The notes beneath the pieces were generated by a model. It had not been told where the DNA came from. It did no database searches and worked only from the letters and a program-made list of their open reading frames with translations. The position numbers and the translations under genes are program-made. A stretch of 64,000 bases of DNA from Rhodothermus profundi (GTDB lineage: Bacteria > Bacteroidota > Rhodothermia > Rhodothermales > Rhodothermaceae), in contig NZ_FRAU01000005.1 of assembly GCF_900142415.1 (NCBI RefSeq), positions 223,854 through 287,853 of the forward strand, read 5' to 3'. Below, piece after piece: positions 42,529 to 45,066 of the stretch; the first letter of the stretch is position 1; every line of letters starts with the position of its first letter.

Positions 42529-42942
42529 ATGTCCACCACCTACCGCCCTGCTTTCCTGGAGCTGTTTGCCCGGCGTTTTCATTGGGATGCCTGGGAGCAG
42601 ATAATCCGGCAACAGGGCTGGACGATCGACCGTCCGTACCGAAGTCGGCATCCCCTCTTTCCAGAAGTCATCTACCCGATCGACTATGGGTACATAAACG
42701 GCACGTGCAGCAGCGACGGAGAGCCCATTGATCTGTTTGTGGGACAGGGCCGTCGTGGTCTGGTAGGGGCGCTTCTGACCATTGATCGACGGCGACATAA
42801 GCGCGAAGTAAAACTGCTGTACAATTGCACGGCCGAAGAGGTGTACCTGGTGAATGGGTTTATCAACTTCGACCGGCGGTTTCTGGAAGGCTTTCTGGTG
42901 CTCCGCTATCCTATGTCGTTGCTGTGGAGCGACTCTGGGTGA
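42529..42942 (+). CDS. Inorganic pyrophosphatase-like protein
   Basis: 137 residues from the ATG at 42529; the frame is open 40 codons further up but that part covers the palindromes and is not family-like. It has HPLFPEVIYPIDYGYI and DGEPIDLFVG, the substrate and metal segments of soluble family I pyrophosphatases (core E..YP.DYG and D.D.D region), in a shorter chain than the usual 175. The DGD-type triad is not complete (DGEPID), so another phosphate ester may be the substrate. It overlaps speE tail to tail by 37 bp. Confidence 0.75.
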   Translation: MSTTYRPAFLELFARRFHWDAWEQIIRQQGWTIDRPYRSRHPLFPEVIYPIDYGYINGTCSSDGEPIDLFVGQGRRGLVGALLTIDRRRHKREVKLLYNCTAEEVYLVNGFINFDRRFLEGFLVLRYPMSLLWSDSG

Positions 42943-43835
42943 GCCGGGCGGCTACGAGCATCTGCAAACAGGCGCCGGACAAAGCTGGGCAGAGCAAACG
43001 CAGCCCGATGCAGCTCAACATTGTAGTAGCGCAGACGATTGGCGAAAGGCGCCAGGCGACGCGCAGCCTGCTCTGAATCGAAATCGTCTACGGGATGCAG
43101 CCGTTTGCTGGCCAGCATGAAGGACCAGAGTCCCATTGGATAGGTAGGAATATGGGCCAGATACATATGCACCTGAGAAAAAAGCCGTCCCAGCATGGCG
43201 TGGGCTGCCTGAATGGAAGCCTGAAACGTCTGATCGAACGGCGATTCACTCTGCGTAACCAGCATGCCGTCTTCGCGCAAGAGACGGGCACAGTCCCGGT
43301 AGAATGATTCGCCAAAAAGCCCTTCGGCAAACTTCACCGGGTCGGTAGAATCCACGATGATTAGATCGTACGTAGCAGGCGCTGCTTCTCGCACAAAGGC
43401 GGCCCCATCAGCCACGTGCAACCTGGCTCTTGGATCGTCAAAGGCCCGGCTGAGCTCCGGGAAACAGGTTCGAGCGGCCTCAATTACGACCTCATCAATT
43501 TCTACCAGATCTACCTGCTCGATTTCGGCATAGCGGAGCACTTCCCGTAGCGTGCCGCCGTCGCCCCCGCCCACGATGAGCACCCGCCTTGGATGGGGCA
43601 AAAGACACAGGGCCGGATGGCAGATCATTTCGTGATAGACAAATTCATCCCGCTCGGTGAGCATCACCAGCCCATCCAGCGTCAGCACCCGTCCAAAAGC
43701 GTCTGTCTGCAACACCTGCACCTGCTGGTAGGCACTCTGTCGGTTAAACAGAATGCGTTCAACGCCAAAGCTCAGTCCGGTTCGTCCCTGCCAGAACTCG
43801 GTGTACTGAAACTGATATTGTTTGGGTGCTGCCAT
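42906..43835 (-). CDS. speE: Spermidine synthase
   Basis: 309 residues. It transfers the aminopropyl group from decarboxylated SAM to putrescine. The N-terminal strand domain is followed by the Rossmann part with VGGGDGGTLREVL near 89, the acidic VEIDEVVIEA near 113, DGAAF near 143, and the catalytic DSTDP near 160. It is directly downstream of speD, the source of its substrate, with a hairpin between them that could set their ratio. Confidence 0.96.
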   Translation of the reverse strand: MAAPKQYQFQYTEFWQGRTGLSFGVERILFNRQSAYQQVQVLQTDAFGRVLTLDGLVMLTERDEFVYHEMICHPALCLLPHPRRVLIVGGGDGGTLREVLRYAEIEQVDLVEIDEVVIEAARTCFPELSRAFDDPRARLHVADGAAFVREAAPATYDLIIVDSTDPVKFAEGLFGESFYRDCARLLREDGMLVTQSESPFDQTFQASIQAAHAMLGRLFSQVHMYLAHIPTYPMGLWSFMLASKRLHPVDDFDSEQAARRLAPFANRLRYYNVELHRAAFALPSFVRRLFADARSRPAHPESLHSNDIG

Positions 43836-43929: not shown

Positions 43930-44325
43930 TCAGGCGGTTGCCGCCTCTTCAAGCACGGGTTTGTGGGGCACGCGCTCAGGAAAGAGCCCTCGTTTGAGCT
44001 CCATGCTGGAAACGTTCCGTGCCCGGAACTGCTCCTCCAGGTACTGCTGAATGATCCAGGGGTCAATGGTATCGCCGCATGTAAAAATATCAACCGCGGC
44101 ATAGCCGTGCTCCGGCCAGGTGTGGATGGCTACATGCGACTCAGCAATAACCACGACGCCACTAACGCCGTGGGGACTGAAGGAGTGAAACGTGTCGGTA
44201 ATGACAGTGGCACGGGATCGACGCGCGCCCTCAATCAAAATTTCCCGAATCAGGGCCTCGTTGTTGAGCACCTCTCGGTCGCAGTCATAGAACTCGACCA
44301 AGATCTGCCTTCCGAGTGCTTGCAT
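43930..44325 (-). CDS. speD: S-adenosylmethionine decarboxylase proenzyme
   Basis: 131 residues, the short bacterial/archaeal SpeH type. It cleaves itself at Glu62-Ser63 in AESHVAIHTWPE, turning the Ser into the pyruvoyl cofactor; His68 and Cys83 (FTCGDT) complete the active site. It makes decarboxylated SAM for SpeE. GGAGGG lies 8 bases before the ATG. Its 5' side is a long gene-free stretch with nested inverted repeats (44340-44562). Confidence 0.96.
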   Translation of the reverse strand: MQALGRQILVEFYDCDREVLNNEALIREILIEGARRSRATVITDTFHSFSPHGVSGVVVIAESHVAIHTWPEHGYAAVDIFTCGDTIDPWIIQQYLEEQFRARNVSSMELKRGLFPERVPHKPVLEEAATA

Positions 44326-44351
44326 CGGCTACCCTCCTTTTGGTTTGCACC

Positions 44352-44513
44352 CCCCGTCTGCCACAAACGGGGAAACATTGTATGGTGAACAATTAATGCC
44401 TCCTGACGGAGGCACCCCATACAACCGCAGTCCTGGCGAGCGAAGGGTAGGAGGACGCCGGAAGACGTTGGCCACGCTACAGACGCGTCCTCTTTAGCTT
44501 ACGAACTCGCCAG
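44352..44513 (-). promoter_or_regulatory. Candidate structured RNA leader of speD-speE
   Basis: Reading in the speD direction: an 8-bp stem (44506-44513 with 44433-44440) encloses a second 8-bp stem (44485-44492 with 44451-44458); next a 6-bp stem (44417-44422 with 44380-44385) encloses a 7-bp stem with a GTCA loop (44408-44414 with 44397-44403); last a 6-bp hairpin (44367-44372 with 44352-44357) stands 26 bases before the ATG. All are perfect pairings. A further 7-bp stem (44525-44531 with 44555-44561) lies upstream. It does not fit the SAM-I, SAM-II, SAH, TPP, cobalamin or preQ1 consensus as I know them. Confidence 0.55.
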
Positions 44514-45066
44514 CCGCTAGCGCATCACGAGCACGCCCTGCCTGAGCAGAACGCCTCGTGAAAAGACGCATTCAAAGAACGCGGGCGTTGCGGTTCAGGA
44601 TCGTACCTGGTGGCAGCAGGCCCTTTCCTGAAGCAGGAACAACAGTAAAAACTAAGCAGCAGAACGATCTTTGTAAAACCCAGTCTTCCCCGACTTTATT
44701 TTTTCACAAACCCCCCGCGCCACTGGGCGGCCAATGAACGACCCCCCTATCACGGAGTTCCTTTTTGCTCCCCTTTAGCACCGCCCCACAAGGGGCCATT
44801 TAGCAATTTTTTACGATGCTGAACTCACAAATGATATGAAACGGCCGGAACCCTCTCGTCTGCTATGCGTTGCCCGCTTCAAACCGAAAGCAGGCGAAGT
44901 TACAGGCTCTCCTTTTCATCTGTTCGACTTAACCAGCTACCAGCCATGAAGCATCGGCCCACTCCAGTGTATCTGGCCTGGCAGCACGGCGGGCATTTCC
45001 AGACCACGGCCATGCTGCAGGTAGCGGGTCGATGTTGCTGTATGGGCTGATCGCCTCTCCACACTT

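Follow-up and report, generated by a model that had tools for sequence, protein, structure and literature searches.

A conserved structured RNA leader before speD-speE in Rhodothermus, a candidate translational riboswitch

The polyamine operon speD-speE of Rhodothermus profundi raises the question of whether the sequence ahead of speD acts as a regulatory RNA and, if so, how it might work and what it might sense. Within the window (the whole stretch of 64,000 nucleotides that was analysed), the original prediction had placed a densely paired and apparently undescribed leader RNA at 44340-44562, and had proposed that it is a ligand-binding riboswitch. Our comparison of homologous loci supported the reading as a structured regulatory leader, and its further reading as a ligand-binding riboswitch is plausible.

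The operon and the extent of its leader

The identities of both genes are firm, as the TIGR03330 and TIGR00417 models each scored above their curated cut-offs, and the N-terminus of SpeE lay approximately 490-585 nt past the speD start in 10 of 10 homologous loci. The operon and its upstream signals are as follows.

42906-43835, minus strand: speE, which comes second in the operon and encodes spermidine synthase (NCBIfam TIGR00417, 284.9 bits, cut-off 249.55; NF002010, 345.3 bits)
43930-44325, minus strand: speD, S-adenosylmethionine decarboxylase, 131 aa, the gene under the proposed regulation (NCBIfam TIGR03330 equivalog, 150 bits against a cut-off of 75.65)
44326-44640, minus strand: structured leader RNA of speD-speE, from leader identity within the genus and a fold z-score of -4.28; the 5' end is an estimate
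44648-44678, minus strand: putative promoter TTTTACA ... TAGTTTT, kept in seven of seven Rhodothermus

The predicted leader proved real, but its interval was too short at the 5' end: conservation reaches approximately 44640 and takes in an extra hairpin at 44594-44632. This extent of conservation argues against a transcription start downstream of 44380. The putative promoter at 44648-44678 was missed by a sigma-70 consensus scan. Most Rhodothermus also carry a conserved imperfect palindrome, TTTGTGAAAA...TTTTACAAA, at 44670-44711, where the sulfite reductase and speD operons diverge, possibly an operator or overlapping promoters. A further element kept in the genus, at 44567-44583 on the minus strand, consists of a CGCGTTCTTTGAATGCG hairpin followed by TCTTTT (TTTTTT in other Rhodothermus) and resembles a terminator. 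Terminator-based control at speD was rejected, the only candidate being this weak 7-bp hairpin and T-run (44583-44567), which lies upstream of the core and was not seen in locus L008.

Structure, covariation and distribution of the leader RNA

Folding of 320 nt of the leader gave -142.3 kcal/mol, compared with -119.9 ± 5.2 kcal/mol for 100 dinucleotide shuffles, not one of which folded as well (z = -4.28). With the Shine-Dalgarno sequence (SD) left unpaired, the minimum free energy folds of all 10 homologous sequences shared a four-helix junction, P1-P2/P3-P4-P5, in which an internal loop separates P2 from P3. The elements of the leader, listed from the 5' end, are the following.

44594-44632, minus strand: 5' hairpin P0, outside the interval of the original prediction
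44525-44561, minus strand: variable hairpin HB, directly 5' of P1; homologues have a hairpin of different sequence at the same place
44519-44523, minus strand: P1 5' strand GCGCT, weak, pairing with GGTGC at 44347-44351; invariant in 10 sequences and predicted in 10 of 10 with the SD free
44506-44517, minus strand: P2 5' strand GCGG-CTGGCGAG; four P2 pairs with two-sided changes, 100% of cells paired
44451-44492, minus strand: P3 hairpin GAGGACG/CGTCCTC; two-sided changes in up to five of seven pairs
44442-44450, minus strand: anti-Shine-Dalgarno element CTACCCTTC (RNA: CUACCCUUC) in the P2/P3 internal loop
44427-44440, minus strand: P2 3' strand CTCGCCAG-GA-CTGC, sharing the P2 covariation
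44378-44424, minus strand: P4 hairpin TTGTATGG/CCATACAA, with its apical stem P4b at 44397-44414
44352-44372, minus strand: P5 hairpin CCCCGT/ACGGGG with loop TTGTGGCAG; one pair with two-sided changes, 100% of cells paired
44347-44351, minus strand: P1 3' strand GGTGC, 9 nt ahead of the SD
44329-44337, minus strand: extended SD of speD, GGAGGGTAG (RNA: GGAGGGUAG), with 9 nt complementary to the conserved CTACCCTTC

The five inverted repeats from which the leader had been predicted all occur at their positions on the minus (speD-sense) strand: TCACGAG/CTCGTGA (44555-44561 with 44525-44531), CTGGCGAG/CTCGCCAG (44506-44513 with 44433-44440), GAGGACGC/GCGTCCTC (44485-44492 with 44451-44458), CCCCGT/ACGGGG (44367-44372 with 44352-44357) and the 44380/44417 repeat, which is present but spans 8 bp (44417-44424 with 44378-44385) rather than the 6 bp proposed; the 7-bp GTCA hairpin lies at 44397-44414. 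An alternative long-range pairing found by eye in Rhodothermus, AACCGCA/TGCGGTT, was discarded as a competitor of P2 and P4.

The covarying base pairs on which the original prediction had staked its case were found in the homologues. In a model-fitted alignment of the 10 homologues, two-sided changes occurred at 13 pairs (21 cells) and 98.2% of cells were paired, against 4.3 pairs and 4.9 cells in shuffled controls and at most three pairs when the partners were slid by 1-3 columns. As such an alignment is biased towards its own structure, a sequence-only alignment of the same homologues was scored alongside and gave 10 two-sided pairs, 18 cells and 94.8% of cells paired. P2 in Rhodothermus reads GCGG-CUGGYGAG with CUCRCCAG-GA-CUGC, and the apical part of P3 has shrunk to a 9-nt loop in L008. 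P4 (UUGUAUGG/CCAUACAA as RNA) showed one-sided changes involving G-U pairs, and its apical stem P4b three two-sided pairs. P1 (GCGCU/GGUGC), which contains two G-U pairs, is invariant among the 10 homologues and thus without covariation support. The structure can be assigned to the speD-sense strand because G-U pairs there, such as those arising from UA to UG changes in P4, would be A-C mismatches on the opposite strand. The homologues settle that the leader is a real, conserved, structured RNA, and its role as a cis-regulatory RNA is well supported.

From the core (178 positions) we built a covariance model and ran it on 245 genomes from the class and 394 from the phylum. It matched, once per genome, seven Rhodothermus (E-values of 4e-55 to 2e-51), one member of another family of the order (G015, 4e-26) and two members of another family of the class (G243, 1.6e-18; G244, 8.6e-17), amounting to three families and three genera. 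No further copies appeared among these 245 and 394 genomes, a refined model returned the same set, and no second copy of the leader was found in the genome of the window itself. In 10 of 10 loci, the RNA stands directly before speD-speE, the only genomic setting found. The window and the six other Rhodothermus share 89.5-95.3% identity in the leader but only 63-78% at the third codon positions of speD, and the leader is therefore under tighter constraint than synonymous sites in the gene that it precedes.

Outside these three lineages the RNA was not found before related genes. The model had no match in 85 genomes of the class whose SpeD is 54-71% identical, and the RNA was absent from 20 of 20 loci in families f16-f20, with SpeD up to 71% identical. 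Two covariance models gave only chance-level scores at 84 speD loci from other phyla and from distant SpeD relatives in the order. A pattern match on a viral contig (L114) matched neither covariance model and was taken as chance.

Other arrangements were seen before speD in the class. Seven loci of family f20 (L122:1330-1503 on the plus strand, L123, L124, L129, L131, L133 and L136) share a different speD leader of approximately 170 nt, with a mean column identity of 83%. Its consensus fold has several hairpins, three two-sided pairs and a GGGGTGG that is complementary to CCACCC, an invariant sequence close to the start codon; it had no Rfam match at gathering level and none to the Rhodothermus model. 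The existence of this different leader suggests that the class may have evolved RNA control of speD on more than one occasion. In six loci of families f16-f18 (L118, L119, L120, L127, L134 and L135), a GCGAC...GTYGC repeat followed by a T run, recognised by eye, precedes speD and looks terminator-like, which suggests that speD may be under transcription attenuation in these families.

The extra 5' hairpin offers a possible tertiary contact. The apical loop of P0 (CTGCCAC, 44610-44616) is the exact complement of the 7-nt GTGGCAG in the P5 loop (44358-44364). P0 was seen when the window leader was folded entire, and six of seven Rhodothermus showed it when the 5' domain was folded separately; taken by itself, the 5' domain of the window favoured another hairpin. 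The P0 loop reads UUGCCAC in L007; in L008, the loop of a similar hairpin carries AUGCCA(C) and P5 carries GUGGCA. These modelled folds suggest a kissing contact between P0 and P5, which may brace the core in Rhodothermus and in the f10 relative. Family f21 (L112, L113) has no P0 hairpin and neither of the complementary loops, and the contact is thus not essential.

Masking of the speD Shine-Dalgarno sequence and competing mechanisms

The element most suggestive of function is the conserved internal-loop sequence CUACCCUUC, which was the top pairing partner of the SD in 10 of 10 homologues, always at the same structural position. The SD/anti-SD duplex comprises 9 bp at -14.7 kcal/mol in nine homologues and 11 bp at -21.3 kcal/mol in L008, where the anti-SD element carries two differences (A to G, T to C) with pairing kept in both. 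Shuffled leaders matched this energy in 0 of 300 cases for L008 and in 1-9% for the others, so that, L008 apart, each match taken individually is a 1-9% event; any SD will readily find a CCCUCC-like stretch to pair with. When the SD pairing was forced as a nested fold, P1 and P2 opened and P3-P5 were kept. By nearest-neighbour energies at 37 °C, which are rough for thermophiles and for RNAs of approximately 200 nt, the SD-masked and SD-free folds lay within 0.2-2.5 kcal/mol of each other in six of seven Rhodothermus; the masked fold was 3.0-5.3 kcal/mol above the free one in L007, L112 and L113 and 6.9 kcal/mol below it in L008, giving a gap of at most approximately 7 kcal/mol across the homologues. 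The conserved complementarity, together with the alternative fold of similar energy, predicts an expression platform able to mask the SD, and masking of the speD SD is likely. Two mutually exclusive folds of similar energy, one with the SD free and one with it masked, suggest a translational switch.

We therefore favour, at a probability of roughly 0.58, a translational riboswitch-like cis-acting RNA that would alternate between these two folds. In the first state, the junction of P1, P2/P3, P4 and P5 would form and leave the speD SD, just past P1, free. In the second, CUACCCUUC of the P2/P3 internal loop would pair with GGAGGGUAG, P1 and P2 would open, and speD translation would be blocked. 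Most likely, a signal from the polyamine/SAM pathway would bind the junction core and shift the balance; under such a nested switch, binding to the core may make it an ON switch. We infer the interconversion of the folds, the sensing of a small molecule, its identity and the direction of the response. Given the gene context, a SAM decarboxylase followed by a spermidine synthase, the natural candidates for a ligand are SAM, decarboxylated SAM, MTA or a polyamine, and SAM is not the automatic choice because the genome already has two SAM-I riboswitches.

The closest competitor is a metabolite-binding OFF riboswitch of the SAM-II or preQ1 type, whose core would stay folded while the SD pairs with it in a pseudoknot; an end product of the pathway, for instance spermidine, or else decarboxylated SAM would repress translation. 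The same SD/anti-SD complementarity would serve this switch, and end-product repression follows the logic of the validated spermidine riboswitch (PMC10853860). The linker between P1 and the SD measures 9 nt in Rhodothermus, 7 nt in L008 and 5-6 nt in family f21 (L112, L113), and A-form geometry indicates that 5-6 nt would probably be too short to cross the approximately 17 bp of P1 and P2 to the P2/P3 loop. This favours exclusive, nested states, and we consider the pseudoknot rather unlikely, if the strongest of the alternatives.

Less probable still is a protein-binding leader, in which SpeD, SpeE, a ribosomal protein or another RNA-binding protein would recognise the core in autoregulation. 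The narrow distribution, the single target operon and the strongly conserved unpaired blocks would fit such a site as well, but SpeD relatives in families f16-f20 lack the RNA. A 200-nt multi-helix junction is also large in comparison with protein autoregulatory sites. An RNA thermometer or simple stability element, with the SD masked at low temperature and opened in these thermophiles, would be in line with the computed balance in Rhodothermus, where the two folds are nearly equal at 37 °C and the SD-free one is favoured at 65 °C; it is nonetheless improbable, as L008 is SD-masked at both temperatures and invariant unpaired sequence across families would be unexpected. Leader-peptide control by an upstream open reading frame (uORF) of the speFL or odc1 type can be set aside: short frames of the form ATG CGT TTT TTC (CTT TTC in the window) do occur in the Rhodothermus leader, but 1-nt length differences (47, 48 and 49 nt up to GCGCTAGCGG) break the frame, the ATG frame has no preceding SD, the ATG is missing from L112, those frames that carry an SD-like motif are not the same in the three lineages, and no uORF is conserved, length and register varying among the homologues.

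Relation to known RNAs and implications

The leader matched no known family, as the original prediction had supposed. Rfam 15 gave no match above the gathering cut-off in the window, and permissive searches with the window leader and two homologues returned chance-level matches only. The SAM-I model (RF00162) did not reach gathering level in the window, and relaxing the threshold to E = 10 for 44100-44800 and to E = 5 for L113 and L008 brought up no SAM-I match; the same model found two copies above cut-off elsewhere in the genome, at G000:C9:79387-79513 (L137) and G000:C6:46972-47082 (L138). SAM-I thus offers SAM-pathway control in the same genome, but the junction and conserved nucleotides of the speD leader differ from it. 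No description of a speD RNA leader in Rhodothermus or its relatives was found in the open literature, in which the 224 candidate RNAs of a 2017 report were covered only via Rfam. The absence of an Rfam match, the covarying pairs and the confinement to positions before speD-speE together bear out the description of a densely paired, undescribed leader.

Two polyamine-related leaders invite comparison. The spermidine riboswitch is a rare SAM-I variant of Gram-positive genera, with the SAM-I four-stem architecture and a spermidine KD near 0.7 mM, which lies in the leader of polyamine genes including speD and speE, exerts feedback (end-product) repression and does so through transcription termination where its action has been studied (PMC10853860); it was the only class of polyamine riboswitch with convincing evidence in the literature searched. 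Both RNAs precede polyamine genes, but the speD leader is not SAM-I-like and has no terminator near speD. The odc1 motif, a leader that incorporates a uORF and precedes ornithine decarboxylase genes (PMC8632094), also belongs to polyamine synthesis, whereas the speD leader lacks a conserved uORF and its downstream gene encodes SpeD. With translational riboswitches in general, the speD leader shares a multi-helix junction, conserved unpaired residues, an alternative anti-SD pairing and a site directly before a biosynthetic operon; unlike them, it is confined to three lineages, and ligand binding is hypothesised.

Collectively, an orphan riboswitch-like leader with a narrow but clean phylogenetic record is the best reading of this locus. 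That it represents a new riboswitch class unrelated to SAM-I, which in Rhodothermia would sense decarboxylated SAM, a polyamine or another pathway intermediate and control speD translation through a two-state SD switch, is a more tentative proposal, to which we give somewhat less than even odds. In Rhodothermus marinus, the aminopropyltransferases APT01 and APT02 make spermidine and spermine (PMC11107197). Whether any RNA is dedicated to sensing decarboxylated SAM or polyamines is a question that can now be posed on a defined 200-nt RNA. If the proposal is true, the leader would be a second polyamine-riboswitch candidate, structurally unrelated to the SAM-I variant and dedicated to speD-speE in thermophiles.
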